From Agarophyton chilense (Eukaryota > Rhodophyta > Florideophyceae > Gracilariales > Gracilariaceae): 64,000 bases of DNA. The DNA lies in NCBI GenBank assembly GCA_030374765.1, contig JARGXX010000001.1:806001-870000 (forward strand). The letters run 5' to 3'. Shown one piece after another: positions 6,459-57,569 of this stretch (position 1 is the first letter of the stretch; each line of letters begins with the position of its first letter). The notes under the pieces are model-generated. The model saw nothing but the letters and a program-made list of their open reading frames with translations. It was not told where the DNA came from and did not search any database. A program made the translations under genes and the position numbers.

Positions 6459-7342
6459 TGTAGGACAACGCTTGGAGCGGAGACACCACCAAGATGTTCG
6501 GGATCTTCCTCTCTTGAGAGACACGCCTCAGGCGGAGGAGACGCGTCCCAGCGGAGCACAGAAACAGAGCCACTCTGGAAAGGCACGACGGAGTCGGGTG
6601 TAAGACCGAGGCCCATCCGGCGGGATATACCTAGAGTGTTTAGGTGAGCAGGGCACAGTCTGGGGTGTGACCAATCCTAGGCGGAGCGGTATCATGGCGA
6701 TTGTCGGAAAAGGAGCGAGGAAACACTCGTATGAGGTGGACGAGCGGGGTGGGTGAGGCGGCCACTCACGAGAGCCAAAACGGAGAACAAGAGGAAAACG
6801 GGGGCGAAACCCTATACAAGGGCGAGACTACGACAAGTGTCGGCGATTAAATACGAACCCACGGTGGTGGTAGCACTCTGGTCGACAGAGGGGTGGATGA
6901 ACTAACGTGCAACGGGCGCTCACGCAGTCTGCGGTGAAGACGCGCCGAAGGCGAAAATTCAGAGCCGAGACTCCCTCCTTGGTCTCCCAAGAGGGTGTTT
7001 ACTGGGGAGCAGTGCTCAACCTCCTAAGTAGCGTGGCGCGCGGCCCCTGGCAGTGGGCGCGCGCCCGAAAATAGACACTACATAGCGATAGCGTAGCTAA
7101 ATAAATACTAAAAATTACTAAATAATACCAACCATTAGGTAGAATCCGGGCCACGTGTGGCACGCCTCGCACTCGAGCGTCGGCATCCGTGCAGTCCACG
7201 TGTTCCACCAGTGTGCACTTCCGGTCCTAACTGGCCGTCAGCACGCAATAGCGGTATAGCTTGTCATAGCCCAAGCTAGCCCTCAACCGAGCGAACTCTC
7301 TAAATCCGGCGAAGAAACCCCCTTGAAGGGCATTGCCCTTCA
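6459..7342 (-). repeat. 3' LTR of chromovirus 1 (family A)
   Basis: 884 bp. On the minus strand it begins TGAAGGGC and ends GTCCTACA. The element's polypurine tract abuts it. Bases 6459-6805 match 17416-17753 almost exactly. The U3 side aligns in outline with the family A LTRs at 17754 and 62976, including two CACGTG sites at 7152-7157 and 7197-7202. Confidence 0.8.
7098..7202 (+). promoter_or_regulatory. AT-rich core and two G-boxes in LTR U3
   Basis: A run rich in TAAATAAATACT lies at about 7098-7133, and two CACGTG palindromes at 7152 and 7197. They lie 180-280 bp upstream of the plus-strand extra ORF starting at 7378, and also within U3 for the element's own minus-strand transcript. The LTR could therefore fire in both directions. 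This is inference; the motifs themselves are seen. Confidence 0.4.
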
Positions 7343-7355
7343 TATCCCCCTCCTT
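7343..7355 (-). other. Polypurine tract of chromovirus 1
   Basis: On the minus strand it reads AAGGAGGGGGATA and abuts the LTR's TG. The second chromovirus has a tract with the same layout (AGGGAGGGAGATA at 56976-56988), which supports the LTR boundary. Confidence 0.75.
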
Positions 7356-7377: not shown

Positions 7378-8871
7378 ATGGCGGGGAGGCAACGGTCCAA
7401 CCGGCATAAGAGCGAGCCGCGTAACGCGTCCAGCGACCACTCGACTGTCGAAGGCAGAGCTGCACAACCGAACGAAAAACGCACCAACGTGGTAACCACT
7501 CCTCGAACTTCGAGCGCTCTTTCACATCGTACGCCCACTTCCCGCGACCACATCAAGATACCTCGGCGACCAGTACTCCCGATGAACGGTGGTAACAATC
7601 CCTGCTGGGGTTACTTCTCCGGTTTCCATTCGGCTCCCCTTCCGCGGGGGAGTGCCTCGTCAACCGCGCCGAGCCGATCCCGGGGTCCCGTTGAAGCTTC
7701 AAGCCACATCACTCCTGCGGAGGACACCTGGCCCAGTTACGACGAACTCGTCGGGTTAAACCCGCGTCAACATGCGGCGATTCTCCGGAGAGCTCCGTGG
7801 TTCCATCCGACAGCGGTCTTCGACGAAGAACTCGTGGCCGCGTATGCTGATGGCAATGCGCGTCTCCCGGGCGAGCTGCCGGCTTTGATCACCACTTCGT
7901 GGGACTGGCGAAGCCGTGAGGCGGTTCCCAATCACGCGATTCTGCGGCGAAGGCGCGAGTCGGCGGAAGAGGCGCATTGTATATTCGTCCGCATCGGATA
8001 CTCACGGATCAGCCGGGCGAACTTCCAACACCCCATCCTTGACGAATTCGGCTTCGACCTACGGATGTACCGGACTCAGGGTGAGATCAGCTATTGTGAA
8101 CACCTCGCGGCGTTGGAAACTTACGCATGGCGCGGTCAACCGCGAGCGCGTCAAGAAGCGATCTGGTGGGTCCGTCCGATCATTCGTGCCGAGTTCCGTC
8201 ACCTTCGTCGTGAGTCCCGATATCGGTGGTTACAGAACTTCATCCGCGAGGAGCGTCGGGGCAGATCCCGCTTTGGGTTCCTTGTCCCTTATCAGAACAC
8301 GGAGATAAACCGGATTAGTCCCTTCTATCAGTTCGGGCGATACGTTCCCCTGCCTGGGTGGTGGTCCTCCGTCGAGGTGTGCCGGGGATGTTACGTGGAG
8401 TTGCCTCCAGTCGTCTCCTATCTGGGCTCGTACCTCATCGAGGATCCGCACTCCGGCTTATGGTCCGTGGTCCTAACCGAATGGGCAGTCCGCGCCGCGG
8501 CGTACATCTTGTGGGAAGCCTACGACCAGTATCGACTGTGGTATCTTTCTCCGCGTTTTCGTGGTTACATCCGGCAGCTGGACCTTCAAATCCATCTTGG
8601 AGGTGTCAATAACGCTGATGAAGCTCAGGAGCTCATCGACATCATTGGGCGTGTCGACTGGGCTGTCGTGCCTGTCCGGCAGAGCGGCCGTGGTCAAGAA
8701 GCCGGTGGGGCTGATCGGTCTCCGGGGCGTCGCACGCCGTTGGCGGGAGATTTCATCTTCTTTAACCCTTTGGAGCGGCAAGAGATCTCCGAGGCGGAGG
8801 CGTCGGCACTCTGGATGGCTCCGCGAGGCATACCATACGGGCACCCCGTGGGGTTTTGTCAACTCGGATGA
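7378..8871 (+). CDS. Antisense extra ORF of chromovirus 1
   Basis: An open frame of 497 codons inside the element, on the strand opposite gag-pol, starting 22 bp past the polypurine tract and pointing toward the 3' end of pol. The first 100 residues are basic and Ser/Thr/Pro-rich. The middle is dense in Trp, Tyr and Arg (for example PGWWSSVEVCRG and WEAYDQYRLWYL), suggesting a folded domain. I see no catalytic motif, no transmembrane segment and no match to gag, pol or envelope that I recognise. Codon use and GC resemble the rest of the element. Antisense extra ORFs 3' of pol are known in some plant chromovirus-like families; whether this one is related is unknown. It looks whole. Confidence 0.65.
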   Translation: MAGRQRSNRHKSEPRNASSDHSTVEGRAAQPNEKRTNVVTTPRTSSALSHRTPTSRDHIKIPRRPVLPMNGGNNPCWGYFSGFHSAPLPRGSASSTAPSRSRGPVEASSHITPAEDTWPSYDELVGLNPRQHAAILRRAPWFHPTAVFDEELVAAYADGNARLPGELPALITTSWDWRSREAVPNHAILRRRRESAEEAHCIFVRIGYSRISRANFQHPILDEFGFDLRMYRTQGEISYCEHLAALETYAWRGQPRARQEAIWWVRPIIRAEFRHLRRESRYRWLQNFIREERRGRSRFGFLVPYQNTEINRISPFYQFGRYVPLPGWWSSVEVCRGCYVELPPVVSYLGSYLIEDPHSGLWSVVLTEWAVRAAAYILWEAYDQYRLWYLSPRFRGYIRQLDLQIHLGGVNNADEAQELIDIIGRVDWAVVPVRQSGRGQEAGGADRSPGRRTPLAGDFIFFNPLERQEISEAEASALWMAPRGIPYGHPVGFCQLG

Positions 8872-9588
8872 CTTCTACTACGCCTATGGCGGTGATGTTC
8901 TCCCGGAGGAGGAGGGCGAATACCGTGGCGACGAGGTCATGGAAGACGTTGGAGATCCCGATGGTGCCGATACTACGGCGCAGCCAGCGCAGGGAGCGAC
9001 TCACGCAGGTGCGGTCATCGATCCAGTGGCGGCGGCGTTGGCGAACGAACCGGAAATTATCGAGGTTCCCGTACGCCCAGAGGCGGTCGTGATCTCCCAG
9101 TTCCTTCGGGGTGTTGGACTGAACGCGCAAGGGGCGAGCGGCGACATCGGTGCGATGAGAGACGCCCTCGTGGCACGCCTGACCGGCGGGAGTAACTGCG
9201 CCAGCGATTCGGTTGGCGCGCACGGCAACCCGGGTTCTTCCAACTAATCCCTTGTGATCTTGGTTAGTATATCCCGCTGTGCGGTAGTGTGTGCAGCAAC
9301 TTCGAAAATAGTAAACTGCTTCCGTCTATGACGTATTTGTTTTCTTTCTTCTCTTCCACTTTTTCTGAGTGTCCGTTTCCAGGTCTTCTGTGCATCTTCT
9401 CCTTCTTCCAAGGGTCTTTATCTAGATCTTCTGTTTCTTTATCCCCATCGGGTGTGTTTTTATCCCACTTGGGCTCGGTCTATGGTAGCCGGCAAAGCCG
9501 TGATAGTACGACGATGATACTGTACCACCTTTGACCGAGGTAGGTGCTCTATCGGTTCATCTGAATCCCATTCGGGGCCGTACCCGTA
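8872..9588. other. Spacer between the antisense ORF and pol
   Basis: Part of chromovirus 1. The first 370 bases are a GC-rich plus-strand acidic open frame close to the antisense ORF. The rest, 9240-9588, is non-coding and pyrimidine-rich on the plus strand (9328-9440). The two converging transcription units of the element would end here. Confidence 0.5.
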
Positions 9589-12500
9589 CTAACGGACCAA
9601 GTATTGGATATACCCCTCTGGGTGGTAGGAGTGCTCCAAGATGCGTCCGACCACGAACTCTTGTCGGTACACTTCCCGTCCATCCCGTATGACGGTGTCG
9701 CTATTTACGGGTGGTACCCGTCCTGAGCCAGGGGGTACCAAAGTGATCACGCGTTGGGCGGCTTCGCTCCGGTCGGACCGTGTGGCGCGCAAGGCAGTCC
9801 TCGGCTGAGTAGAATGTCGACCCGAGTTCGGCGGTTCTTTTTCCCCAAGTGCCGGGCTTGTTTCGGCGCTTCCCACTTCGGTTGGAAGGCCCACACCGGC
9901 GGGTAACCCGGGTGTTCGTTCCGCTAATCGGCGTGGTGAAGCTCGCTTCGGGGGTGAGAATCGCTGGGGCGGTGGGGCATTGTCGCACCACTCTGTCCCA
10001 CGGCGAGGTTCCGTGTAGTCACGTGAGGGTTCCAATGGCTGGCTGTCCGGCGTCGGCGCCGTGGATGTATCCGCCTCCCTGTGCGGTGTACTTGGCGGTG
10101 CGTCGTCCACTCGTACTGTATCAGGCTGCGGTGCGACGAGCGCATTTGCATTCCGTGTTGCACGTGTGGTGACACCTCGGCGAGTGTTGGTGGCGTTATC
10201 CGCAGCTGCGGTCTGAGGCTTGGATAGCGACTGCGTCGAGTCGTGCAGGACGTCGGTATCAGGCACCCCTGATGGGCGAAGAATGACACGCGACGGTGCG
10301 GCGTTTCCAGCGACGGCATCGACCGGATTACAACGGCTGTCGGGCGCCTCCCCCTCCTTAGACGATGCACCGCGGTTGATGTCCGTCGGGTGGACTAGGG
10401 AGGAGCGACAAATGCGCGACACGATTCCTTGCGGGCTGGGCGCCGCGGGTAGCGGAAGGTCAGGCAAACCCCGAGATGGGTGTGGTAACGCGTAGGGAAG
10501 CGGGTGGCCCTGGGGTAAGGAGGTCGATGTATCCGTTTCAACGGGAGCAGTCACACCGGTAGGTTGGGATGTTAACGGCGGAAGAGCCCATACCACGCGA
10601 TCGCAGGAGATGCGTTGGTGATTACCAGCGAGGTCAACAACGACAGTGTCGGGAGCCACCGAAATAACCCGAAAGGGACCGTCGGCAACGGGTGACAGCT
10701 TGTGGCGTTTCTCCTTCTCTGGGTTCCAATACTCCTTGCGGATGAATACAAAACCGTCGGGGGCGAGACGTGGCGGCGAGCGAGGGGCTTCGGTATCAAA
10801 GTCACGCTTGTAAGCGGCCTGGGCTCGGCCCATTGAACGCCGTGTGGCGGGAACGAGCTTCGTGAGCCAAGTTTTCCACGCTTCGCGGTAAGCAGTCGGT
10901 GATGGAAAGGTATCCAGCGTGGGCTGTGTTTCCAGCGCCACGGGCGGTGGGGTACGGGACAGTACCAGCTCGAAGGGCGTTATTCCAGTTGTCCTGTGCA
11001 CCTGCGTATTGTACGCAAAGGTGAGCGCATCAGTGAACAAGTCCCAATCTTTGGTGTGGTCTGCAACGTATGAACGGAGTGTCGCAAGTAATGTCCGATT
11101 GAACCGTTCGGCCTGCCCATTAGTTTGGGGGTGGTAAGTGGTCATGAACAGGTTCTTAATGTCCAAGATGAGACACACATCCTCGAAGAAACGAGAGGCG
11201 AAATGTCTCCCGTTATCGGAGAGGAGGTTGACCGGTGGACCGTAGACGAAGACCCAGTGTAGGAAGAAGGCTTGAGCCACGCTCATAGCGAAGATCTTCC
11301 GTGACGGTACGGTCCGGACCAGCTTGGAGAAGCGAACCGTAATTACGAATAAGAACTTGTAATTCCGCTTAGTGGTAAGGAAGGGACCGAGTATATCGAT
11401 GGCCACAAACTCCAATGGAGCGCGAACTGGAAACAGCTTCAAGTTCGTCGCATGACGGCGGAGTTTGACACGGTTCCGAGCGCAATCGGTACAAAACCGC
11501 ACCGTTGCGTAGCAGTCCACTGCCATGGCAGGCCAGTAGAAGTTACGGCGTAGGGTAAGGTAAAGTTTCCGTCCCCCGACGTGGCCACTCAGTTTGGAGT
11601 ATTGCGACAACCGCAAGACTCTCGACTGGAGGTTATGTGGTACCACGATTTGTGGGTGCGATCCAACGGTCCGTACAAGGTATCCGGCGTCCTTCACCTG
11701 AAAGGGGAGAGTACCTCCTCCATTGAGTTGAGCGCGGACCTTCGCGCAGAACGGGTCAGCGAATTGCTCCCGTATCATCTCCTCTGGAGTAATAGGAACG
11801 AAGTTCCCTGGTAAGGGTTTCTCGGAATCTTTCGAGAGAAGAAAGTCGTCCAATTCGGAACCGGAATCTGAAGAGTCCGTGTCTCGTTCCTCGTCCTCGA
11901 TGGTAGCGTCGTTGCCATTCACTTCAAAGCAGGGTATTTCATCGTCTTTGACGGGTAGTGCTTCGCCAGTAGTGACCAGGCGGGGGAGAGCATCGGCTTG
12001 GGTGTTGCACGATCCTTTTCGGTACTGCACGTCAAAGTCAAATTCCGCTAGACGGAGACGCCAACGAATCCAGCGGCCCGAAGGCTCCGAGATGGAGAGT
12101 AGCCATCGAAGCGATACGTGGTCCGTGAAAACGGTGATGTGATTACTCATGAGATAGGGGCGCAAGGTTTGTAATGCCCACACTACTGCAAGGCATTCCT
12201 TCTCCGAGACGGAGTAATTCTTCTCGTGGACGTTTAGCGATCGGGACCAGTACCCTACGGGGCGTCTTTCCCCATTGGGTGCAGTTTGAAACAGTGCACA
12301 ACCTACTTGGTAGTCGCTGGCGTCCGTATCTACGGTGAAGGGCCTTCCAGGCTTGGGCAACGAGAGGATCGGGGCGGAGACGACAGAATCCTTAAGAGAG
12401 TTGAAAGATTCCGTTTGAACGGGGGTTAAGGGGTCCAGTTTTGGTGGTTGGCCTTTCCGCAAAAGCGCGTTTAACGGTGCAGCGTTGTCCGCAAATTGCG

Positions 12501-13059
12501 GGATGAATCGTCGGTAGACGTTTGCGAGTCCCAGAAAGGAACGAGGCTCGGTTTGCGTCCGCGGTTCTTTAGCCTCTTTGAGTGACTTAACACGAGCCTC
12601 CTCGATTGTAACACGTCCGGGACGGATAACATGGCCGAGATAATTCACGGTGTCCGTGAAGAAGTCACATTTATTCATCTTAAAGGTGACACCCGCATCT
12701 CGAAACGTGGTCATGATATCCCTCACATGAGTGAGATGTTTGTCCAGATTATCTGAGAAGACGATTATGTCATCCAGGTAGGCCAGGCAGGTACGCCATT
12801 TGAAGCGGGCCAATAGGATGTCAATGGCTCGCTGGAAAGTAGCGGGGGCGTTGGTAAGACCAAAAGGCATCCGTTTGAAACGGTAGAGACCGGAGTGACA
12901 TGCGAAAGCGGTTTTATCCTTGTCTTGCTTCCTTACCGGAACTTGCCAGAATCCCCAATTGGCGTCCAGGGTTGTAAAGACGGTGGCGGTGCCCAGCGAG
13001 TCAATGTTCTCGTCCATTCTTGGGATTGGATACACGTCCTTGACGGTGGCGGCATTCAA
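9589..13059 (-). CDS. Pol region of chromovirus 1 (RT, RNase H, integrase)
   Basis: Domains in order: reverse transcriptase with the palm signature FTTLDAN and the YLDD box, RNase H starting at TVDTDASDYQVGCAL, the integrase zinc-binding H2C2 segment (HVGGRK to CTDCARN), the integrase core with its D-D-E style landmarks (DILGPF, SDNGRHF, HPQTNGQAERF), a GPF/GPY-type module (DGPFRVI), a long Pro/Ser/Thr-rich tail and, at the very end, the first strand of a chromodomain (VVGRILEHSYH). This domain order defines Ty3/gypsy chromoviruses. It converges with the antisense extra ORF. Confidence 0.92.
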   Translation of the reverse strand: MNAATVKDVYPIPRMDENIDSLGTATVFTTLDANWGFWQVPVRKQDKDKTAFACHSGLYRFKRMPFGLTNAPATFQRAIDILLARFKWRTCLAYLDDIIVFSDNLDKHLTHVRDIMTTFRDAGVTFKMNKCDFFTDTVNYLGHVIRPGRVTIEEARVKSLKEAKEPRTQTEPRSFLGLANVYRRFIPQFADNAAPLNALLRKGQPPKLDPLTPVQTESFNSLKDSVVSAPILSLPKPGRPFTVDTDASDYQVGCALFQTAPNGERRPVGYWSRSLNVHEKNYSVSEKECLAVVWALQTLRPYLMSNHITVFTDHVSLRWLLSISEPSGRWIRWRLRLAEFDFDVQYRKGSCNTQADALPRLVTTGEALPVKDDEIPCFEVNGNDATIEDEERDTDSSDSGSELDDFLLSKDSEKPLPGNFVPITPEEMIREQFADPFCAKVRAQLNGGGTLPFQVKDAGYLVRTVGSHPQIVVPHNLQSRVLRLSQYSKLSGHVGGRKLYLTLRRNFYWPAMAVDCYATVRFCTDCARNRVKLRRHATNLKLFPVRAPLEFVAIDILGPFLTTKRNYKFLFVITVRFSKLVRTVPSRKIFAMSVAQAFFLHWVFVYGPPVNLLSDNGRHFASRFFEDVCLILDIKNLFMTTYHPQTNGQAERFNRTLLATLRSYVADHTKDWDLFTDALTFAYNTQVHRTTGITPFELVLSRTPPPVALETQPTLDTFPSPTAYREAWKTWLTKLVPATRRSMGRAQAAYKRDFDTEAPRSPPRLAPDGFVFIRKEYWNPEKEKRHKLSPVADGPFRVISVAPDTVVVDLAGNHQRISCDRVVWALPPLTSQPTGVTAPVETDTSTSLPQGHPLPYALPHPSRGLPDLPLPAAPSPQGIVSRICRSSLVHPTDINRGASSKEGEAPDSRCNPVDAVAGNAAPSRVILRPSGVPDTDVLHDSTQSLSKPQTAAADNATNTRRGVTTRATRNANALVAPQPDTVRVDDAPPSTPHREADTSTAPTPDSQPLEPSRDYTEPRRGTEWCDNAPPPQRFSPPKRASPRRLAERTPGLPAGVGLPTEVGSAETSPALGEKEPPNSGRHSTQPRTALRATRSDRSEAAQRVITLVPPGSGRVPPVNSDTVIRDGREVYRQEFVVGRILEHSYHPEGYIQYLVR

Positions 13060-13158: not shown

Positions 13159-14466
13159 TCAAAGCATTTTATCCACTTGTGCCTTTTCCTCCGCGCGTGC
13201 GGCGGGTCCGGCACGGTATGGGTGCTGAGAGATGAGTCGGGTGTCCGGTAGCGAATAAATCCGGTGTTCCGTAGTGGCAATCTCACCAAGGGAGCCGTCC
13301 CACATAGTGGTGAAGTCCCTTAAAAGTTCTCGCAATCGATGGCGGTATGACTCCGGGACGTGGCTGAGATCCAGGTCCTCGAGCTCTTGGACTGGATCGG
13401 GGCAGTCACCACTCGTTGAAACGGGCTGCGTCCCTGATGTGACAGGTTGAACCCCGGGTACCGGTGATGAAACGGGTTCCGGGCTGTCCCCCTCCTTAAA
13501 GTGAACTAGTCCGAGAACGTCAGCTGCGGTCAGCTTTGTCGGCACCATAGCGATGGGGTGCGGCATGACGGACCCTATCACTTGGTTCTTCACCAGATAC
13601 TGGGGTACAGTCCCTAGATTGGCGATCAGCACGTGAAACGGTTGGTTTGGCTCCACATAGACGATTCCATTCGCAATTGCGAAGCTGTGCCTGTCATACA
13701 GTGACGACAATGGTTGCAAGACCCCGAGTCCGTGTTGACGGGAGGTTACTTTCACCATCATTTCGGACTTAGGCGGGACGCACAACGACGCTGCGACGCG
13801 GAGCTTATTAGAATCACGGTTATCCGGTCCAGGTTCCTGTGCTGCCGGTAGCGGGACATGCTTCTTCGTGGCACGCCTAAGAGGACGACGAAAGACCGGA
13901 GTGGACGATCCATCCTCCATCTCGACACGCCGTTGGCGGGGGAAGATCGCTTCGACGAAGCGGTCGCAAAAGTCGAAACCCAAGATGACCGGGGCGGCAA
14001 ATTTCCGACATACGACGAAGTCGAGTTTCACCACGCGAGCGCCAACGCGGACTACCAGTTCTATGAACCCCACCGTATCCAACGGTTTGTTGTTCGCGTC
14101 AGCGACCTCCGGGACGTGGTCGCGGCTGATCCTAGACTGCAACGCAGGCGGTAACACTTCCTCTACGAGAAAGTTCGGACCGGCACCGGTGTCTAAGACG
14201 GTGAGGTGTCGCACCGTAAACTGGGGTGAAAGGCCAAGGTCGGCATAGACCTTGTAGTTTCTCTTGGCCATCACCAGAACTCTATCCGGGAACTGGTTAT
14301 GGGAAACAAATTTCCAAGGACGACGCAGAACACTAAAATGTTCCGAGTTGACGTCATTGACGGCCTCTTTCCTTGAAAGGATTTTAACGGAAGAGCGAGG
14401 CTTGGACGTCTCGGGCACGGTCGACCTCGACTCTGAGGGCGCCCCTCCTTGAGAGGAGACCCCCAC
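13159..14466 (-). CDS. Protease and start of RT, chromovirus 1
   Basis: Part of the same element. The segment carries a retropepsin-like active site LDTGAGPNFL and ends in sequence typical of the N-terminal edge of a Ty3/gypsy reverse transcriptase (ISQHPYRAGPAARAEEKAQV). The region cuts the polyprotein in retroelements and has no host role. Confidence 0.8.
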   Translation of the reverse strand: MGVSSQGGAPSESRSTVPETSKPRSSVKILSRKEAVNDVNSEHFSVLRRPWKFVSHNQFPDRVLVMAKRNYKVYADLGLSPQFTVRHLTVLDTGAGPNFLVEEVLPPALQSRISRDHVPEVADANNKPLDTVGFIELVVRVGARVVKLDFVVCRKFAAPVILGFDFCDRFVEAIFPRQRRVEMEDGSSTPVFRRPLRRATKKHVPLPAAQEPGPDNRDSNKLRVAASLCVPPKSEMMVKVTSRQHGLGVLQPLSSLYDRHSFAIANGIVYVEPNQPFHVLIANLGTVPQYLVKNQVIGSVMPHPIAMVPTKLTAADVLGLVHFKEGDSPEPVSSPVPGVQPVTSGTQPVSTSGDCPDPVQELEDLDLSHVPESYRHRLRELLRDFTTMWDGSLGEIATTEHRIYSLPDTRLISQHPYRAGPAARAEEKAQVDKML

Positions 14467-14468
14467 AT

Positions 14469-17250
14469 TTAGTTCTTCTGGGCCTGCTCCGCCGGAGGCG
14501 GCTGCTCAGGACGTTGAGCAGGCAACGCCGGGGCATCAGGTCCAGAAGGTACCGCAGAAGCGGTGGGGTGAACGACCACGTCGGTGACACGGGATTCCGG
14601 TGCAGGTACCACCCGAGTTCTGGGAAGCGACACGTGACGTGGAGCATCCGTTCGAGCACGGATATACGATGCAATCGGAACAGCTGCTTTGTCCTCCGGG
14701 GATAGGGCCTCGTAATTGATTATGACTTGTGCCCATTCTCGGAAAGACACCACACATTGTGGAGAAGTATGGCCTGGTTTGTAGCAGAGATGACAACTCA
14801 GACCAGAAGCCGGGGTTGGGTGGCGAGGCTCGTCGAACTTCACCGCGGGGCGCGTATCTCTCCAACCAGGACGCGAAAAGCGGACATTACCACTCTCGTG
14901 TGGGACGTGTGGCGCACGTACGCGCCCATTATCCGCATAGAGTAGCGTGTCATCCGCAATCACGTATTGTGACTCGTCCAAGGTTGAGGGTAACTCCGTT
15001 GTCGGGATGGAATGAACGTCGCTATGGGCTAGCTGCACGTTATCATAATCCCTTCGAAAGGCCTTTTCGTCGATCATCAAAGCTGACGGGGTACCCAATT
15101 GTAACATCAATGCTTTTGCGGACCTACCCCTGGAGCCAGGAGTTCGTGTGCGCAGGGCTTCACCTTCTGCACGAGCGAACTGCACTAGTTCCAAATACGT
15201 GGCTTTAGGTCTATCTTCTCGACGTCAAGCAACAAGAGTCCGGATCGCCGGGTCCAAACCATCGACAAACATGCTACAACGCTCTTCAGCGGGGTAAAAA
15301 TTGCCACAGCGGTGGAAGGCCTTGTTAAGGCGCGACGAATAATCGGTTTCCGACTCGCCTGGACGTTGGCGAGTGTCCCGCAGGGCGCGTATAGCCTGCT
15401 GAATGGCGGATTTAGTAGCATACGATCTCAGGAGGTACTGAACTGCTTCGGGCCAGCATGTAACCCCTCCTTCAGAGGCGCTTGATGAACCTCTGACAGA
15501 GTGATACTGGTCTTCTGCAAGCCCACGTAAGAAGTACGGTAAGGCAATGTAGGCCTGTCCCTCGTTCATTCCAAGGATGTCAGCTTCGGCGACAAAGCGT
15601 GCCAAGAAATCCAACACCAATATTGAGTCTTGTCCAGAAAACAACTGGTTTCGTAGTGAGAGCTGCATTCGCTTAATGCAGTCCTTCACTCTTCCCGTAC
15701 CACGGGGTGTACGATCCAAAGAGGAGTCCTCCAAACGGTAGTACCGGTATGATAAGAGCTTCTTAAAGAGCGAATTGGTCGGTTTCAGTTCCTTCAAACC
15801 TGTAGTATCCACTCTAACGGAGAGAGCGGACACCTGCGACAGCGTTTGGACTGCCGAGGGGTCGCTTGCGGCGATGGAAAAGGGGTGGTAGAGCTACAAC
15901 ACCAGCGAGCCGGAAGTGGGGTGTAAGGCCACTACTCGCCAGCGAGGGTGAACAGTGCCACTGTAAAACGTTGATGGGACGTAGGTACGAGACGGCTCGT
16001 GAAGTGGTAGGGGGCTGACTATCTATTATAGCTTGTCCGGATCTCCGGTTAAGGAATCCTAAGCGAGGAACGGAATAGTCATGATGCCCATGCAGTCTCC
16101 TTTACTTGGAGTCGGCGCTCACCTCTGGTACACTATATACTGTGTACCAGGGTGAGTGCCCAAATAAATATATAAATAATACCCAGTGGTCAGCCACTTA
16201 GCCAAACCACTGTATGGGTATGGTCCCTAATGGACGTCTAGCTACAAAGAGTAGTAAAGCCCTCCACGTGGATGGCCACTACATGCGCCGTTTCCAATAT
16301 GGCATTCCCCTAGGAAGGGTCGCAACTATGCGCGCGCCGTGGTAAGCCACTCGACCCATGACGCCAGGTGTTCCACTAAGACATTCTGCCTCTAGGCATC
16401 CTATGCGTGGTGCCGTTTCATGTCACAATGCTGATGATATCACTCACTTATGAGTTCCAACCGCGACTTCGCGAAAAACCAGCCTATCGGATTCCCCGAC
16501 ATAGTAGAATACTACAAAACCTGTGTGCTTCCTTCCCTTCGTGCGGGCGCGGATCACACCATGGGTGGCTGTTGACCGCTTAGAGCGTGAGGAACGCTCA
16601 CGGAGATCTACTTCCACCGATGAATCAGAAAAGTCGGACTCCGAGGATGAGGAGTCTGACGGTTCGGGATCCGTGTTTCTTCGCTTCCTTCGAGCCTGGC
16701 GGTTCTCTTCCTTTCTTCTCTTTTTAGATACTGCAACAGGCTCGGCCGGATCATCCCCCGACATTAGGGTTTGTTCCAACGTCTCGAGACGGCTTCGGAC
16801 GCGCGAGAACTTGTCCGCGACGTCCTTGACAAAGGGCGAGGGTCCACCAAGGGACTCTAGAATCGAGTTCACATCCGCACGGAGGACACGGAGGTCCTCA
16901 GAAAAATCCTGCTTAGCAGTGTCATCCACCTTCCTTCAAAGAGATTCAAACTCCTCTGCAAGGATGACTTGAGCTTCCCGCAAAGAGCGGAGTTGCTCTT
17001 CCACAGCTGCAAAGCTGGGATGGAGCGTGACATCCCTAGCAGGGGAGAGCATCTGGGCGGCGACAGACGCCGGTCCTTCTCCACTTGCTGGGGGTGTCGA
17101 ATCAGAAACAGGAGGTCTCGAGGTCCTTCCACCTGGTACACCAGTCGATCCACCGGTATGAGACCGTGAACGGACCAGGATACCGGATGGTTGCGAAGGT
17201 TCCGGTGCACCGGTTTGACTCCGCGTCCTCGGACGGTCTTTGGACGACAT
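14469..17250 (-). pseudogene. Gag region of chromovirus 1, interrupted by a solo LTR
   Basis: A gag-type region read right to left. It starts near 17250 with a basic, low-complexity N terminus, continues through an acidic/basic Ser-rich part (16517-16929), then a helical capsid-like part (15225-15800) and a CCHC zinc knuckle (CHLCYKPGHTSPQC) near 14760-14800. A solo LTR of family B is inserted at 15801-16516. It is a fossil with a few breaks. Confidence 0.8.
15801..16516 (-). mobile_element. Solo LTR, family B, inside gag of chromovirus 1
   Basis: 716 bp with short inverted ends (TGTAGTAT and ATACTACA) and a perfect 5-bp target duplication AAACC at 15796-15800 and 16517-16521. It matches 61365-61982 and 5496-6458. 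It carries a CACGTG site at 16266-16271. It inserted after chromovirus 1 had landed. Confidence 0.9.
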
Positions 17251-17394: not shown

Positions 17395-17412
17395 TTCTAA
17401 GTCGGGAGACCA
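17395..17412 (-). other. Primer-binding site of chromovirus 1
   Basis: Three bases inside the LTR end the minus strand reads TGGTCTCCCGACTTAG. It starts with the TGG complementary to a tRNA CCA end. The second chromovirus has TGGTCTCAAGACTT in the same place, so both seem to use the same primer tRNA; which one I cannot tell. Confidence 0.65.
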
Positions 17413-17415
17413 GTT

Positions 17416-17753
17416 TGTAGGACAACGCTTGGAGCGGAGACACCACGAAGATGTTCGGGATCTTCCTCTCTTGAGAGACACGCCTCAGGCGGAGGAGACG
17501 CGTCCCAGCGGAGCACAGAAACAGAGCCACTCTGGAAAGGCACGACGGAGTCGGGTGTAAGACCGAGGCCAATCCGGCGGGATATACCTAGAGTGTTTAG
17601 GTGAGCACGGCACAGTCCGGGGTGTGACCAATTCTAGGCGGAGCGGTATCAAGGCGATTGTCGGAAAAGGAGCGAGGAAAAACTCGTATGAGGTAGACGA
17701 GTGGAGTGGGTGAGGCGGCCACTCACGAGCCAAAAAGAGAACAAGAGGAAAAT
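17416..17753 (-). repeat. Partial 5' LTR of chromovirus 1 (inner part only)
   Basis: 338 bp nearly identical to 6459-6805. The U3 side expected further right is absent; instead an oppositely oriented family A LTR begins at 17754. Confidence 0.8.
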
Positions 17754-29479: not shown

Positions 29480-29573
29480 CTAGAGACAGCAGAGAGAGAG
29501 ATAGACAAAGATAGAGAGACAGTAAAAATCGCGCCCTTCGCCGCCGTACGCGTCGCCTGTGCCCCGTGTTGCC

Positions 29574-30363: not shown

Positions 30364-30397
<34 letters not shown>

Positions 30398-30546: not shown

Positions 30547-30588
<42 letters not shown>

Positions 30589-30879: not shown

Positions 30880-30944
<65 letters not shown>

Positions 30945-46191: not shown

Positions 46192-47145
46192 ATTTTTCTC
46201 CACGGGGGCCGCTCGGAACGGGTATTAATCTTTTCTTGCTTGCCGCCCGTTTGTAAATTCACTGAACAGCTTCGTTTTTATCGAAGTGCATCCCCGGCGA
46301 AAGATGAGCATTTCGCCGAAACCTTCTTGTCGTCTTGGTAGCAATCACACCGGCTCAAATTGAGACGAATTGCACGTCTCCCGAGAGCCCCACATTTCGG
46401 AGTCTTCCATCGCTCACAGACTTAAGACAAGTGCCCAATCGACACGACGTCGCCGGCGTCGCAAGAGTGACCAACCAGAGGCCTAGGCTCAGATATTGGT
46501 CCCCACCACCATTGCACCAGGAGGACGATTCTCTCTCTGCCAATGGCTAAATAGTATTTAAAATTTTAGGCCAATAAAAACAGTAGGCTCAAACATAATT
46601 GCACCTCTGCCCAATGGTTCCAGCCCAAGTCATCCCAGTTGTCAGTCATTATCGTCCACGTATCGTCTTCAAAACGTGACCATCGACGTCATCAGAGCGT
46701 GACCATCATTGATATCCGGTCGCCGCCAAAGCGTTCTCCCGTCGCAAGTACCTCAGTATATCCATCGTTGATATCCGATCGTCAAAGCGTTCTCCTGTCA
46801 CACGGTCTCCCGTCGTATCCGTGCGTTTGCCGGAACGATTTCTCGCCGCAGGCGAATCACGATCACCCACCTTTGACAACCAGGGCCGTAATTCGCCATT
46901 TACCTCCGAAGATGCGTCTAAAAGCCTTTCACATGACGAGTATGCTACATTTTTCTCTCCCGGATACCTTAAGGTATTTGCAAGATAGATATGGATTTGT
47001 CTTAAACCCAAGATCTATCCAAAAGGTGTTGGGATGTGGACGCGGAATAAATTACCCCAAAGACCTTGAAGGCACAAATCTGTTCAAGAAGGTGGTCATG
47101 TTTCACGATGAAAACGTAGGAAATAGGTGTTGGATTACTCACAAC
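46192..47145. other. Region left of chromovirus 2
   Basis: It holds a direct duplication of about 40 bp (about 46703-46741 and 46761-46798) sharing GATATCCG and CAAAGCGTTCTC. Near 46915-47100 a plus-strand segment reads LPDTLRYLQDRYGFVLNPRS, a helix-turn-helix-like phrase seen in transposase N termini; this is weak. The target duplication copy of chromovirus 2 is at 47141-47145. Confidence 0.4.
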
Positions 47146-47589
47146 TGTAAAGGATCGATGAAAAAGGTTGAGAATTGTAAGCTGCCGGTCCCAGAGATGT
47201 CTTAAAGGCCACACGTGGACTGGTCTACATCAGGTGGACTCATGTAGATTATTTATTTATCTTAAATAGTGTAATAGATTGGCATGGAATTGCAAGGGAG
47301 ATCATAGCGCCTCGCCAGTACTATTTTCTTGGCTCTAGTGACGCTCTTCGCTCAAAGTAAGGTAGGAAGCTTTAGGATACTAAATAACCTCCTTTGGTAT
47401 ATTAGTTCCCCAATTGGTCTTAAAGCCATAGTTTGCGTAGCTTAAAGTGTAGTACTACCCAGTAAATGTCAGCAAATTGCACCAAGTACTCTGGGAGTGC
47501 CGCCGTCAAGGATTCTAACCTTAAGACCTGTTCTAACACGCTACCACTGGTCGAGACCGGTACGCTGACCCACTTGTCATTGCGTTACA
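47146..47589 (+). repeat. 5' LTR of chromovirus 2 (family D)
   Basis: 444 bp, TGTAAAGG to GTTACA. It aligns end to end with 56989-57434. It has a CACGTG site at 47212-47217 and a degenerate copy of the tRNA-like segment described for the 3' LTR. Confidence 0.9.
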
Positions 47590-48022
47590 TTTTGGTCTCA
47601 AGACTTGAAAACCTTTGGAATAATTGAACATATCACTGGAACGAAGAATTATCCAGATTCTAGCCTTTGTTTTTATTCCCCAACGGACCAGAAGTACAGA
47701 AACAACCGCCATTATGGATGCAAGATCCACATCCAACCGACCAGATTATAGGACTCCTACGGCAGAACGAAGTGCGACTACAACGCCGGCAATGTCGCCT
47801 GACCCTCAGGTTGATACCTCTAGCGACCGCAGGAGCACGAGGAGCCAGCCGCAAGAAGTACTGACCCCCTGGATAACCCTGAAAGGATTCGCCGAGAACC
47901 CACGGTGGCAGCGCATCTACGAGAACGCCTCACCAAGGCTACGAGAACGCCTCACCAGGGCCATCTCTTGGCCAGGGACATCTCAAGGAGAACCCCACCA
48001 GACCGAAGTAATTAGATAAAAC

Positions 48023-49393
48023 ATGCCCGCAGGGCTTGCCGACCTTCTCTGGCCCCGTCTCCGTGAGCTCTGCTCAGCCCATGAGGATTCCATTATGATC
48101 ATGCGACTCGCTACGGCGATCGCTGACCATACGGATTACCTCATCACGCGAGTCGTCCCTAAGGTAATGGAGTCTGAATTATTCATAGACTCCCTCCTAC
48201 AGGCCGTTCAAGGAGCAGTCACCCGCCAGGCAGGGAATGTGGTCTCTACGACCACTCCACCACAAATTAAACATCCGGTCTCCATATGGAAACCCCCTAC
48301 CGAACCCCCAGGAGCGGCGGTATTATCCGCTCTTCGCCGGGAATGCAATCAGGAAACCCCAATGGGGGGACAATCTAGGAGCAGAAGAGAACCTTCGCGT
48401 CTAAATGAGAGACAGATTTTCCATCAGGAAAATCCTAGGGAAAAACAAGCGAGAAGCAGAAGAAAAGCTCCGCGTCTAGAAGAGAGCCCGCCTGCCCCAC
48501 CCTACGGATTATATCAGGTACAGCGACCTCAAGGCTCCATTGGATCTGATAGAGAGATCGATTCTTTAGTTCCCTATTCCGCTGGAAAGAAAAGAAGCAA
48601 CCACAAGAGAAAGAAGAACAGAAGGAGTAAAAGAAGATACCATTCGGACACGAGTGATTCCGAATCGGCCTCGACCAAAACGACCGACTCGGAAGTGAAT
48701 GAGACTGCCTTACGAGGCCTCAGACCACTGACAACAACCAACGAACGTTTCCTCATGGTTCTAGACTACCGGGATTACCGGCTAGCCGACAGGTCTGCAA
48801 AATATTCTGGTTCGGTGGCTCGCAGAGTCGCAAAATGGGCCAAACGGATGCAACTAACCATTACGGACAACTTCTCGGGTTCGGATCCCATTGGTGTCCT
48901 TAGGTTTCTCAGTTTATTTCGTACAGATTGCGATCAGAACGGTGTCCACGAGGGCGCCGCTCTGTACCTTTTCCAATTCTTCATTACAGGACAGGCGCGT
49001 GACCGAGTGGTTTGGAAGATATCTGGCACAACTGACGTCGTGGAAGCTCAAGACCGTGAGCTCCTCAGGTCATACGCCCAGGTTGTTCATTACCTCTTGG
49101 AGACCTACGCCACGAATGACGTCATAACGGATGCCCGCCAGGAAATCTTTTCCTTTAGACAGAGCTCCAACACGACCGAACCGGCTTTCGCAGACGACCT
49201 TTGGAAGAAGGCTTGCCGATGTGGAAATGTATTCTCCGAAGGACGGTTCAAAAGTCACTTCATCACGGGATTGCTCCCTGCCATTCGGACACATGTCAGC
49301 AATTACCATAAACCCACAATACTCCTTCCGAAGGCTATTTACTTATGCCGGGGGTTATGGAAAAACCTACAGTACTTCCAGACGGCATGCTGA
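48023..49393 (+). pseudogene. Gag region of chromovirus 2
   Basis: 456 open codons with a Lys/Arg/Ser-rich central part and a helical capsid-like part (GVLRFLSLFRTDCDQNGVHE). The order and composition match the gag of chromovirus 1. It is a fossil. Confidence 0.7.
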
Positions 49394-51083: not shown

Positions 51084-54000
51084 ATGCGCAAAGCTCAAAT
51101 AATACAGCCGGCGCCTCCAAACCAATCCGAATGGGCAATTCCCCTTTTCCTCGTGGCGAAGAAAGATGGCTCCGTCAGGTTCTGTGTCGACTATAGAGAG
51201 CTGAACGCAGTAACTAAGAGGGACTCATGCCCGATAACCCGCATGGATGACTGTCTGGATTCCTCACGCGAAGCTGTCGTATTTACCACACTGGACGCTA
51301 ACTCCGGATATTGCAACATCCCCTTGGCCGAAAATGCGAGAGCGCTGACAACCTTTACCACCCACGAAGGTCTGTTCAGATTTACTCGTATGCCCTTTGG
51401 TTTAAAGAATGCCCCAGCAACTTTCCAACGGGTAATGGACATGGTACTGTCCAGAGTCAAATGGAAGTTCGCCCTGGTGTATTTGGATGACGTTATAATC
51501 TTCTCACGAACCGTAAAGAAACACCTTCGCCACGTGAGGAAGGTGCCAACAATCCTACAGGACGCTGGAGCAACACTGAAACTCCGCAAATGCGCTTTCT
51601 TCCAGGCCTCAGTGGACTATCTCGGTCACGTCGTCCTCCCAGGAAAGCTAAAGTTGGCCACACGGACCACAAATGAGATTCGCCAGGCTAAGCCTCCTAG
51701 GACCCACACGGAACTACGATACTTCGTGGGCTTGTGCAACGTTTCCCGACGGTTCGTCCAAGGGCTTGCCAAGATTTCGTCCCCTCTCAACGCGATGCTG
51801 AAGAAGGGATCACCTTCGGAGTTCGAAGCCCTTACCGACGACCAGTACGAGTCATTACAGACCCTAAAGGACAAATTGCTGAGCCCACCTATATTGGCTT
51901 TACCAAAACCCAATAGGCCCTTTTTTCTGGATACGGACGCTTCTGATGTCCAAGTGAGATGTGCACTGCTACAGGAACAGGATTTATCGAAGGACTATCG
52001 ACCTATTGGATACTGAGGTAGAACGCTCACCAGCGCGGAGCGAAACTACAGTTCTACAGAAAAGGAATGTCTAGCCATCCTATAGTCTGTATTGACACTC
52101 CGTCCGTACCTCTAGGGAACCAGATTTACCACTAGGACAGACCATGATTCACTCCGCTGGTTACTCAACATGACCGATGCATCGAGTCGCCTCGCTAGGT
52201 GGCGCCTCAGTCTGTCAGAATATGACTACGAGATAACCTATAGACCAGGCATCAAGCACCAGGCAGCATATGCCCTGTGGCGTATCATTACCGACGGAAC
52301 TGACGACACTCCATTGGACGACCTAATTCCTACCCCCTCTACAGACGATGGACCTCAGGAATATACGGAAAAAGATGACCTTATGGGGAAGGTGCATTCG
52401 GAGGATCCTGAGGTAAAGGAGAACGAATTACACCTATTGGACTCCAAGACAGCACCGCCCAACACGTCACCCCCCCAGGTTAACGCGGTAGCCCCGGAGG
52501 AAAAAGAGCTCCTCCATATAACTATTGAGGAACTCCTACAGGCACAGGTCCAAGACGAGTACTGCAAGGAAACAGACCAATTGGTAGGAACCCCAGAATC
52601 CCTATTCGACTACGACCGATTTGGACTACTATGTCGCCGCTCACCGCTGGATGGCGCACTCCAACGGATAACACCAACTTCGCAAAGGGCGCGATTCCTA
52701 TACCTCGCCCATCCCCCCCGTTTGGCTGGCCATCCTGGAGGCCGAAGAATGTACCAAACACTAAGGAAGTTTTTCTACTGGCCACTGATGGCGCAGGCTA
52801 TATGGCAAACCGGACGGAACTGTACATCGTGCGCACAAATCTGAGGGTCTCGAGCCAACCACCATGCCAAGTTGAAGCTCTTCCCCGCCGCAGGACCGAT
52901 GGAATTTGTCGAAATGGGTATACTTGGGCCTTTGCCGAAGTCGTCCCATGAGAAACGGTTTGTTTTGGTTATAACCGATAGGTTTACCAAACTTACCCGA
53001 GCCCTACCACTAGGGAAGGCAACAGCCACGGATGTGGCCACGGCCTTCTTTTCCTACTGGGTATATCCCGTTGGCATGCCATTATACCTCCTTACCGATA
53101 ACGGCAGCCATTTTTTATCCAATTTCTTCTCACATGTTTGGGCTACCTTAGGTATCAAAAATGTGACCACCACGGCGTATAATCCGCAAACTAATGGCCA
53201 AGCCGAACGCCTCAACTGCACCCTTCTGGACCAATTGGCGCACTACATTTCGGAGCACCAATTGGACTGGGAAGACTACGCTGAGCCACTGGTTTATGCC
53301 TACAACACGCAAGTGCCCGCTTCCACGGGGACAACATCTTTCGAGTAAACGCTAAGGAGATCGCCGCCGCCGATAGCTGTTGACCTTCAGGAATCAATCA
53401 TACCCCAGGACATGACCGAAGGAATGACACCGACCCAGGCAAAGCGCTAATCACGCCGACGCATTGACCGCATTCTCCAATTGGCCAGAACTGTACTTAC
53501 CAAAGCCCAACGGCGCTACAAGTTCAATTTCGACAAAGCCGTTTGGAACACACCGACCTTTGGGAAAATGGAACTCGTTTACCTGGACCGGCCAGTGAAG
53601 GACGGTGAGGACCTCGAGGACACTACGCTGAGGATCTTACCCCGCCCTACAGGACCACACAAAGTCCTGAAGGCCAATCAACACATCATTACGTTACTAA
53701 TTGACGGCCTACAGAACACCGTATCGATTGATCGGGTGACCCGAGCTCCCAGCTCCCCCGAATCACCAAATTCTCATTCTCCTTGTCCAACGGAATCCCT
53801 ACGACCTCATGTTAACGCTCAAGTCTCCACACCCCCTAAGGCAGTTCTCGTGGACCCCACTAGCCCCATGGACCCGATGGTCCATGCCAATGACGACGAC
53901 CCATCTCTTCCAACCGATTCCGATTGATTCGCCCCTCTGGACCATACTCTCCTCCGGGGGAATGAACACCAACAGGAGTATGTGATTTAGGGCATCATCT

Positions 54001-54300
54001 CCGCCGGTCGGGGAGAAGACAGAACTATGTGCTACTGCGTCCATTGGTTCGGCTACACACCTGAGGAAGACACTTGGCAAGAGCCTCAAATCCTTCCGGC
54101 TAATTTTATCGCCCGTTATTGGCGCAGAATCGGCCGCACGGAGCGCAGCCTTCAGGAGGCAGCAACCATTGGTCCGAATATTCTCAAAATGCCTCCCAAA
54201 AAGCCTCTCAAACCGCCTCCAGACACGACGGTTCGCCGAAGCACGACGGTTCGTCGTAGCTCCCGCATCAGGGAACAAGATCAGTACTTCGGCGAGACCT
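51084..54300 (+). pseudogene. Pol region of chromovirus 2 (RT to chromodomain)
   Basis: Reverse transcriptase (TTLDANSGY, FGLKNAPATF, YLDDVIIFS), RNase H (FFLDTDASDVQVRCALLQ), integrase (GHPGGRRMYQTL zinc-binding part, DNGSHF, NPQTNGQAERL), a GPHKV-type module and a C-terminal chromodomain (YCVHWFGYTPEEDTWQEP). The chromodomain, which steers integration to chromatin marks in this group, confirms the chromovirus assignment. Several breaks; fossil. Confidence 0.85.
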
Positions 54301-54479
54301 GAGGAAGACCTGAGAAGCTCTCAAGGTTGGACAACGTCCCAGGGCACGCACTTTTGAGATACCAGAACGAACGTGGGAAAGCACAAGCATTAATTTATTT
54401 GACTAGCCAGCAGAGATATAACAGCCCTCATCATGACTTCAAGGTTCGTGGAACCACTCGGAACACCAACAGGACTCAC

Positions 54480-56780
54480 TGGGGCGGCACAGGAGTAACT
54501 CCGCCGTCCTTATTGGAACCTGCAGAAGCGAAACCGGCACTACGGTCACCGGAGGAGCCAACTGGACCACAAGGACCGGCCCCAGCGAGCCGAGCATGCT
54601 TCTTCGGCGGAGATTCCCCTGAGGAACTATTGTCACCATCGGAAGCCTCCCGGTCACTCAAATTTAGACCACACCGGGCATCCAAGTCAACAGTAACCCT
54701 CTGGGACATCACTTGGGCATTCTGCTGCAAGATACTGACCATGGCGATCTTCAGGTTCTGACCCTGGTGGACAACCGCGGCGTAGCGCGCCGAGCGACGC
54801 GCCCAGGAGCAAGCTTTCCTCAGTCACAATGTCCATCGAGGCCGTAATACCAACGGTACGGCAGACATGACGGAAATCGGAAGCCGCCGCCGTGACTGAA
54901 ACGGGAAAGTGTGGCAACAGAGAGGACGGAGCGATGTCGACGCCCCCAGTGGACGTTTGAGCAAGTGCATCACCTACAGGACTTCCGTCATCGACCGTAA
55001 CCTTGCCAGGAGGGATGTCCACCTGCGCGATCGGTGGCTCATAAGAAAACTCATCCTGTGGAGCAGCGCCCGGAGGAGCTGGAGGAGGAGAAGCAGTCGG
55101 CAACACCACAGCGGACTCGACCGGAGGATTAACGCCCTCTACGGGTAGGACGAAGGGATCTTCACCGAAGGGATCTCAATCGGATATACCAATAGGAACT
55201 AACGGCGTGGCTTCCACATCAAGCTCGAAGCACAGGGGATCGAAACTAATGGCCTTCGGATAATATTCGGTCACATGACGCCCCAGGATGTCCGATGGTT
55301 GATTCTTCAAAGGCTTAGTGGGATAGGCACGAGCGTCGGCTTGACTCTGCGGATGTAGCGGAATCGGCGTGAATGAGTCGGTATCGTGGTCATACAAAAA
55401 GAACCCGGCAGTCTTGCCCCACTTCACCTTTAGGACATGATCCAAAAGGACCTCGGTCTCCTTGATAGTGAACTGGGTCCCATGGAAGATATTATGGATG
55501 CCCAGGTTTCTTAGGAAGCGGATCATGATTTTCGACAGCGGGATTGGGCGACCTCGAGGACCGGGTATGTTCTCGTCGTACCATTCCCTCCAATCCTCCA
55601 AACGGACATTACCTCGGACTTCATATTTCGCGGTATCCAGGAAGGCCATAAGGGACATTACGCCGAACTGAACCAAGAGTACCTGCCAGGACAGCCACGA
55701 CCTTCGGTCATTGTCATCGCCCATGAGTTGGAACGATTGTTACGCAACCACAAACGGCGTGGGAACCAAAAGGAGCGGCGAGACACCCCAATACATGGCC
55801 CATTGGTTTTCATCCTTGTGGGCAAGCGAAAGATATAACTCAAGACATTTGTCTGTGCTCATGTCGTGGAACACCACCTGGTGCCAACAAAAGAAGAACC
55901 CCAGGGAGTTGAGGCAAACGACCATCGGGCTCTTGCATCTCGTTCCAATAGACCCGGTTGGACATCCAAAACAGGCGGACATACGGCGGCCGGAAGCACA
56001 TACGAGCCAAAAGGTTGTGACCCGTGGGAGGAAATCGCACATGAGGCGAGTTGAATTCCGTGTATAGGTCCGAAAGAAGTTTGTTCACCCTGAACTGGTT
56101 TTCGGCTGGCTCCTCGCAGCGGACGTATGGCATCTTTGTTTGGATGAGAGTGCTACATCGCGTCGCTGAACGGGGATCCACAAGACAAGACAACCATCGG
56201 TTATACCACGAGACGATGCGCGCCTTTTTGCTTCCCCTCCCGAAATCGGTTATCTGGACAAACCTTCGGGCTTCCAGATACATATGACAAAACCGCTGGT
56301 ATTCTTCCACAGAGGACGGAAGAAGGGCATGACGCACTGCCAGCGGATTCCGTTCCATGGTATGATCCTAGCGGTCCCCGGGACGTTCGTAAGCCACTTG
56401 GTATCTCGAGGAGCTCCCCGCTTGGTTGTTCGAAGCCATAGTACCGCTTCCCACAGGCGAGTCCACCGGGAAGTGAAGAGGACGACCGACGGAAGCGACA
56501 AAGTCCGAATGGAGAACTGCATATCCGACAGGCTTTAAAGGCGAGTTTGGCATCGCGCGCGACGAATGGAAATGTACAACGATGGGAAGGTGTCTGACGG
56601 AATTGACCCGAGTGGACTGACAAGTGTGAACCACTGTGGACGAAGCGCGGAGGGTCGCTAAAGGAAGAACGGAGACTGAGGAAGGCCCCAATGACCGTCA
56701 AAGAAGAAGAAGCCAATGGACCGTCTCGGCAACGCGACGCGAGGAATGCGGCGGCGAGGCACCTATGGCCAGCGCTCATG
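54480..56780 (-). pseudogene. Antisense extra coding region of chromovirus 2
   Basis: Between the chromodomain and the polypurine tract the coding signal lies on the opposite strand, as in chromovirus 1. Long open parts are 55176-55724 and 55840-56358. The translated parts are rich in Trp, Tyr, Arg and Pro (WREWYDENIPGPRGRPIPLS, VSWYNRWLSCLVDP). I cannot align them with the ORF at 7378-8871 by eye beyond composition. No known domain is seen. Broken, with several interruptions. Confidence 0.5.
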
Positions 56781-56975: not shown

Positions 56976-56988
56976 AGGGAGGGAGATA
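56976..56988 (+). other. Polypurine tract of chromovirus 2
   Basis: AGGGAGGGAGATA directly before the TG of the 3' LTR. It has the same form as the tract of chromovirus 1. Confidence 0.85.
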
Positions 56989-57434
56989 TGTGAGGGAGCG
57001 ATGACTGCAGTTGAGCTTTGTAAGGCGCCAGGCTCAGAGGTATCTTACAGGCCACACGTGGACAGGTCGACCTCAGGTGGACTCAGGTATATTATTAAAA
57101 TTTTTTAATTAGTGTAACAGATTAGCATTACAGTGCCAGGAAGATCCCAGCGCCTCGCGACTACTATTTACTTTGCTGGAGTGACTCTTCTCCCTTAAAG
57201 TAAGGTTGGCCCGGTTAGAATAGTAAAGAACCCCCTTTGGTATATTACTTCCACCCTTTGGTCTTCAAGCCATCATTTCCGTAGCTCCAACCTGTAGGAC
57301 TACGCAGTAAACGCCAGCCCATTTCACCGAGTACTGAGGGAGTGCCGCCGTCAGGGATTCGAACCTTCAGACCCGCTCTACCACGCTAGCAACGGTCGAG
57401 ACCGGTACGCTGACCCACCCGTCATTGCGATACA
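56989..57434 (+). repeat. 3' LTR of chromovirus 2 (family D)
   Basis: 446 bp, TGTGAGGG to GATACA, followed by the target duplication ACAAC. It has a CACGTG site at 57055-57060 and the antisense tRNA-like segment at 57351-57400. Confidence 0.92.
57351..57400 (-). repeat. tRNA-like segment with a Pol III B box in the LTR
   Basis: On the minus strand the LTR reads GGTTCGAATCC (57365 to 57355), a perfect B box and T-arm loop. Upstream of it lies TAGCGTGGTAGAGC, close to a tRNA D-arm/A box. The spacing is shorter than in a tRNA, since no anticodon arm fits, so this is a remnant and not a working tRNA gene. The 5' LTR has a degraded copy at about 47508-47552. Confidence 0.6.
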
Positions 57435-57569
57435 ACAACGTTAAAAGACGAATGGTATCGGCATGTTGGGCTTTTGTTGAGTAGATTGATGACTAAAAAT
57501 CGCTTAGAGTTGTCCCCGGATTTTTTACTGATTGTAAGGCAGTAGAAACTTAATATAGATTTCTGCTTA

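Follow-up and report, generated by a model that had tools for sequence, protein, structure and literature searches.

Two elements and their antisense genes

The window, that is, the whole stretch of 64,000 nucleotides of Agarophyton chilense DNA analysed here, contains two Ty3-type retrotransposons, referred to as elements 1 and 2. Between pol and the 3' LTR, element 1 carries an additional ORF, and element 2 the remnant of one, that is read against gag-pol. The gag-pol region of element 1 is on the minus strand and its additional ORF, of family A, is on the plus strand.

6459..7342, minus: 3' LTR, element 1; shares 340 bp with 17416-17752
7343..7355, minus: polypurine tract, element 1; sense AAGGAGGGGGATA, from sequence
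7378..8871, plus: antisense accessory ORF, family A; 497 codons, ATG to TGA
8872..9247, plus: C-terminal part of the same gene, in a shifted frame in the window copy; protein-to-DNA matches
9589..13059, minus: pol, element 1 (RT, RNase H, integrase; the frame stops within the chromodomain); domain search
13159..15857, minus: gag and presumed protease region, element 1, several frames
17398..17412, minus: primer-binding site, element 1; TGGTCTCCCGACTTA, from sequence
17416..17752, minus: truncated 5' LTR, element 1; matches the 3' LTR (95.9%)

The antisense ORF starts with an ATG at 7378 and ends with a TGA at 8869-8871. The polypurine tract falls within the 36 nt that separate this ATG from the edge of the 3' LTR (7342). 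A sequence-only reading had described a 497-codon ORF that runs against pol from beside the polypurine tract, and its coordinates and strand were confirmed. Relatives of the protein extend about 120-130 residues past the end of the window ORF; residues 491-608 of P0001 match 8891-9190, and residues 442-559 of P0002 match 8840-9205. The window copy is slightly damaged, since this C-terminal part sits in another frame up to 9247, and the part is uninterrupted in other copies (e.g. L026, L029 and L034).

The remainder of element 1 is of the Ty3/gypsy type, with the domain order RT-RNase H-integrase. Its pol frame breaks off in the chromodomain at 9592-9660, where copy L034 reads on. The protease is presumed, from position, to lie in the 13159-15857 region, in which 15192-15857 is 35% identical to the gag of element 2 and a zinc-knuckle match is weak (E 0.05). 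When the best 40 of 669 genome candidates for the 3' LTR were scored (window included), 36 of the 40 matched over positions 1-884. The right side of the element is incomplete: the LTR match ends at 17752, where another repeat begins, and because the 5' LTR passes into this repeat no target duplication can be found. The other repeat, at 17753-18342 and beyond, is abundant (at least 41 places among 472 candidates) and continues past 18342 in L035; some same-strand pairs lie about 9.2-10.6 kb apart, an arrangement that suggests the LTR of yet another family of elements. Three copies of a dispersed repeat, about 75% alike, are found at 6185-6452, 61615-61868 and, inverted, 16018-16178; the last of these lies inside element 1, where it separates gag from the 5' LTR.

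Element 2 spans 47146-57434 and its gag-pol region is on the plus strand.

47141..47145: target-site duplication ACAAC, left
47146..47589, plus: 5' LTR, element 2
47593..47607, plus: primer-binding site, element 2; TGGTCTCAAGACTTG, from sequence
48023..49393, plus: gag, element 2; weak Retrotrans_gag match (E 0.004, under the curated cut-off)
51084..52844, plus: RT, RNase H and integrase H2C2, element 2, broken frames; domain search
53952..54299, plus: remnant of the chromodomain-bearing pol end, element 2; 71% identical to the L043 end, E 6e-43
54479..56439, minus: antisense accessory gene remnant, family C, three frame pieces
56976..56988, plus: polypurine tract, element 2; AGGGAGGGAGATA, from sequence
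56989..57434, plus: 3' LTR, element 2
57435..57439: target-site duplication ACAAC, right

The two LTRs are 79% alike and the 5-bp target duplication is perfect, with ACAAC at 47141-47145 and 57435-57439, in agreement with the earlier claim that it sets the limits of element 2. An antisense coding signal had been placed at 54480-56780, in the same slot as in element 1, and the remnant found at 54479-56439 agrees with this. The remnant consists of three pieces (56439-55909, 55910-54822 and 54823-54479) with one, two and no stop codons respectively, and corresponds to residues 1-655 of the open relative in L039, with 69-74% identity. The primer-binding sites TGGTCTCCCGACTTA and TGGTCTCAAGACTTG are similar and each is three bases from its LTR; the polypurine tracts are similar too. 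Between the two elements, at 28000-33000, long GC-rich ORFs are crowded together and overlap in several frames, accompanied by triplet repeats, as is typical of low-complexity sequence.

Chromovirus identity of the carriers

A Pfam Chromo match was found at the integrase C-terminus in L034 and L043 (E 0.0034 and 0.00029, under the curated cut-off). When the same integrase ends were compared with the PDB, the best matches were chromodomain proteins (E 4.5e-6 and 8e-5), and the matches were mostly chromodomain, chromobox or heterochromatin proteins, with Clr4 and CDY-type proteins first. No Chromo match was obtained with Pfam in L041 or in two family-B pieces of L035. The C-terminal chromodomain, together with the domain order, supports placing the carriers of families A and C among the chromoviruses. 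Both elements had been called chromoviruses on first inspection, and that assignment is supported by the chromodomain in L034 and L043, by the frame of element 1 stopping inside it and by the remnant at 53952-54299 in element 2.

These elements resemble chromoviruses in their RT, RNase H, H2C2 and rve integrase, C-terminal chromodomain and tRNA-type primer-binding site, and the 5-bp target duplication of element 2 also fits; the extra antisense gene sets the red-algal elements apart. Excerpts of Neumann and colleagues (2019; PMC6317226) attribute extra ORFs to OTA non-chromoviruses and to SIRE copia elements, and in these excerpts none was met for chromoviruses.

Slot, strand and spacing across copies

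Twenty 10-kb stretches (L025-L044), picked for long open frames, were inspected. The antisense ORF was followed by pol on the opposite strand in 17 of them; the exceptions were L038, with gag only on the opposite strand, L040, without pol, and L030, in which the pol is that of another element on the same strand. The distance from the ATG to the LTR edge, derived by hand, was 36 nt in all 11 family-A copies inspected (10 loci and the window). Of the LTR beside the antisense ORF in L029 the last 51 bp alone remain. In family C, roughly 400-520 nt lie between the LTR and the ATG. L039 and L040 are near-identical family-C copies, in both of which an additional LTR-like copy, inverted, separates the 3' LTR from the antisense ORF; because this is common to both, they are probably one duplicated segment.

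Pairs of antisense ORF and RT within 12 kb were also drawn from coordinate lists, with at least 86 antisense and at least 111 RT places for family A, and at least 150 and at least 128 respectively for family C. Among the listed pairs, 45 of 46 in family A and 37 of 45 in family C were on opposite strands; 40 of the 46 lay at 4518-4636 bp and 35 of the 45 at 4289-4437 bp. The remaining pairs were scattered, as nested or neighbouring elements would be, and cross-pairing of A with C gave one stray pair each. The fixed spacing and strand therefore argue strongly against a separately inserted element.

Relatives and copy number

Relatives of the ORF, which the first reading had proposed to look for, were found in Gracilariopsis chorda, Gracilaria domingensis and A. 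chilense, along with many copies in the genome. A protein search with family A, in which 7994 candidates from 5.8 billion sequences were scored, returned three proteins, two of which are from G. chorda, with identities of 49% and 48%. A profile search gave 14 proteins, including all three of these, and also P0014 of G. domingensis (40% identical). The named red-algal relatives in G. chorda and G. domingensis show 40-57% identity; fragments from A. chilense are closer, P0016 being 92% identical over 46% of the query and P0018 86% over 32%. Searching with the element-2 type yielded three A. chilense proteins as well as a relative of 674 residues. Homologues thus occur in three Gracilariales genera (the order was checked for two of them). 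P0001, P0002, P0014, P0004-P0006, P0016 and P0018 carry the label of hypothetical or unnamed product in G. chorda, G. domingensis and A. chilense; by their sequences they are likely to be products of this transposon gene.

The genome searched was the window's own (79.8 Mb, 135 contigs), and the scored places are lower bounds, candidates not being counts. Family A has at least 86 places (best of 1893 first-look candidates) and family C at least 150 (best of 611), the window copy being included in each; a sister subfamily, B, found with P0002, has at least 77 places (best of 1823 candidates). No stop is present in the matched part in 12 of the 86 family-A places and in 54 of the 77 family-B places. 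Frame lengths in A and B, with stops read through, are mostly near 640 codons, compared with 497 in the window.

Homology of the antisense proteins

Within the window, tblastn found no link between the two antisense ORFs. Comparison of the A/B and C profiles with hhalign, P0007 included, aligned 163 columns with a probability of 95.7 and E 9.4e-9; E was 2.6e-8 for a wider A/B set, and when P0007 was left out the match was weaker (probability 69, E 4.4e-5). The score of 72.0 compares with at most 33.5 among 200 block-shuffled C profiles, and reversed-profile and gag-profile controls gave no match. Both the hallmark motif and the end of the core, DW...VP, fall within the aligned part. On this sequence comparison, families A/B and C are one protein family of remote homologues.

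RT identity is 71% between A and B and 52% between A and C; for the antisense proteins the values are 35-38% (41% in another comparison) and, over the aligned core, 22-26% respectively. Judged by these identities, the antisense proteins have the same order of relatedness as RT and change faster. The simplest account of the sequences is that the antisense gene descended with the element from a common ancestor.

The protein has about 620-690 residues with a conserved core of about 370; the N-terminus and tail are probably disordered. Where well predicted, the core is mostly helical and bears the motif TEWAVR...YRLWY...LDL..LG...DW. The original description as a protein without a recognisable domain holds for the profile, PDB and fold searches, which gave no credible match. 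No credible Pfam, NCBIfam or PHROGs family was obtained, no PDB sequence match was below E 0.7, and the model, of moderate confidence, had no fold match, predicted viral folds included. Ten proteins and five window pieces gave no match to TRP28 (PF04195) at E up to 1, nor did the window ORF at E up to 0.1. None of nine proteins has a membrane span, the highest 19-residue hydropathy being 0.93-1.46. Family C and P0007 have basic motifs near the C-terminus (KRTR and KRPR respectively), which we take as hints of nuclear signals; B has no basic motif by the same pattern, and A has arginine runs inside the core only.

Selection on the antisense frame

Median pairwise dN/dS in the antisense frame was 0.73 in A (91 pairs, 14 copies), 0.53 in B (28 pairs, 8 copies) and 0.52 in C (55 pairs, 11 copies), in copies drawn from the best matches or longest frames, a choice that favours open, intact frames. 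The remaining frames of the same strand had values of 0.93-1.29. Among opposite-strand frames, the one mirroring the wobble position had low values in B and C (0.44 and 0.60 respectively) and the others 0.93-1.24; in A the opposite-strand range was 0.82-0.92.

For variants shared by at least two copies, the relative N/S of the antisense frame was 0.49 in A, 0.42 in B and 0.36 in C, compared with 0.82, 0.57 and 0.69 respectively for single-copy variants, and shared variants in the two other same-strand frames gave 0.84-2.55. With P values that treat related copies as independent, the difference between shared and single-copy variants was significant in C (P 3e-5), marginal in A (P 0.046) and not significant in B (P 0.55). 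In A, the antisense frame compared with the next frame gave P 0.067 when shared variants were used and 0.30 with all variants; in B, antisense against the wrong frame overall gave P 0.002. The RT of A had N/S of 0.34 for shared and 0.90 for single-copy variants, and that of C gives no yardstick because only three sequences with no shared variants were at hand. Between A and B, dN was 0.72-0.76 and dS 2.2-2.3, which is near saturation; RT dN was 0.21.

The substitution patterns point to purifying selection on the antisense frame; the signal is clear in C and weak in A. Taken together, N/S and divergence therefore suggest that the gene was maintained as a protein during spread, less strictly than RT. 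The proposal that the antisense ORF is a stable feature of the lineage is upheld by slot and strand, by the A/B-C homology, by the Gracilariales relatives and by selection at the codon level.

Proposed role and alternative explanations

The gene itself, its slot, its homology, its spread and a codon-level constraint of varying strength were demonstrated. It is probably an accessory protein gene of ancient standing in red-algal chromoviruses, with a promoter in or next to the 3' LTR and a product that acts in trans in the element's cycle. Where transcription starts, that the protein is translated, where it acts and what its role is are what we infer from these observations. Placed between pol and the 3' LTR and read against gag-pol, the gene would in family A be transcribed inward from a start within U3 of the 3' LTR, the most likely place by geometry because the ATG is so near the LTR edge. 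In family C a promoter beside the LTR would also be possible because of the longer interval between LTR and ATG. The geometry would fit a 3' LTR that serves as a promoter in both directions. The protein might then act in trans, for example by regulating transcription or silencing, or by escorting nuclear steps.

If an antisense RNA were the useful product, for example as double-stranded RNA tuning the element, the protein would be incidental. Convergent genes would indeed yield overlapping RNAs, and non-coding antisense LTR transcripts are known in other elements, according to excerpts of PMC7264820. However, the constraint depends on frame, the protein homology runs across families and genera, and 54 of 77 family-B places are stop-free in the matched part, so that this explanation is unlikely. 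It is equally improbable that the element carries a captured host gene as a passenger from which it gains nothing: although the relatives are annotated as hypothetical host proteins, the matches are paired in element copies at fixed spacing, the A/B-C homology argues for long residence, and shared variants are under selection.

The interval between pol and the 3' LTR is also the env slot, and a structural env-like or movement-like third gene could have been inverted there by happenstance. The antisense orientation, the nine proteins without a transmembrane-like segment and the predicted viral folds without a match all speak against such a gene, which we consider quite improbable. Inverted orientation alone would favour an ORF from a separate element inserted into the chromoviruses, but this is contradicted by slot, strand and distance that are alike in dozens of copies, in families with different LTRs, and can be given very little credence. 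A chance ORF is hardly credible at all; GC-rich sequence does yield long chance ORFs, many of which overlap at 28-33 kb in the window, but homologues, genome copies and selection contradict this origin.

Likeness to known systems and significance

The accessory protein gene is similar in position only to the aORF-3R genes of plants (maize Grande gene23, Silene Retand ORF4 and rice RIRE2), which are antisense in the slot between pol and the 3' LTR. According to excerpts of PMC7264820 and PMC11963269, these plant ORFs are kept in most copies and related between species. TRP28 (PF04195), which typifies the antisense proteins of Retand, is carried by 97% of Retand clusters. Excerpts of PMC7264820 also report that a promoter upstream of maize Grande gene23 drives its transcription and that the protein is nuclear, and those of PMC11963269 suggest a regulatory role for the Retand proteins. 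However, all of these come from land plants and Retand is expressly non-chromovirus, whereas the red-algal carriers bear a chromodomain and TRP28 was not found in their antisense proteins; the plant analogy is therefore adopted for mechanism and not for membership. In plants, extra-ORF proteins from the same lineage often lack mutual similarity (excerpts of PMC6317226). The HBZ-type genes of deltaretroviruses are likewise regulatory antisense genes with a 3' LTR promoter, as excerpts of PMC11963269 and PMC7264820 describe; the likeness drawn here is one of arrangement, and the corresponding promoter of the algal gene is a proposed one.

A more specific possibility, which we put forward tentatively, is a class of trans-acting, probably nuclear antisense proteins of their own ancient red-algal origin that counter or time host silencing, convergent with the plant and retroviral ones. 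If true, this would add a third major retroelement group with a convergent antisense regulator read from the 3' LTR.

The best descriptions of such antisense genes come from Tat-type elements of flowering plants and from deltaretroviruses. The sequence-only reading knew of none described in red algae; among the open-access matches listed (titles and abstract openings) no report of a red-algal antisense transposon gene was found, which agrees with that statement as far as these matches go and is not proof of it. A selected gene in chromovirus families with about half-identical RTs, on a separate photosynthetic branch, suggests that the 3'-LTR antisense slot has been reused repeatedly. Because the protein persists across families and genera, its function is testable. 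The results also suggest that several hypothetical proteins in public Gracilariales genomes are transposon genes.

Other Ty3-type elements in the genome

On contig C28, one family has a 1626-codon frame whose two same-strand copies lie at a distance of 5759 bp. Not every Ty3-type element in this genome can carry the antisense gene, because this spacing leaves no room for it. On contigs C5, C49 and C105, RNase H copies with the same or nearly the same scores recur at regular spacings of 9734, 6523 and 6343 bp respectively, which suggests head-to-tail arrays of Ty3-type elements.
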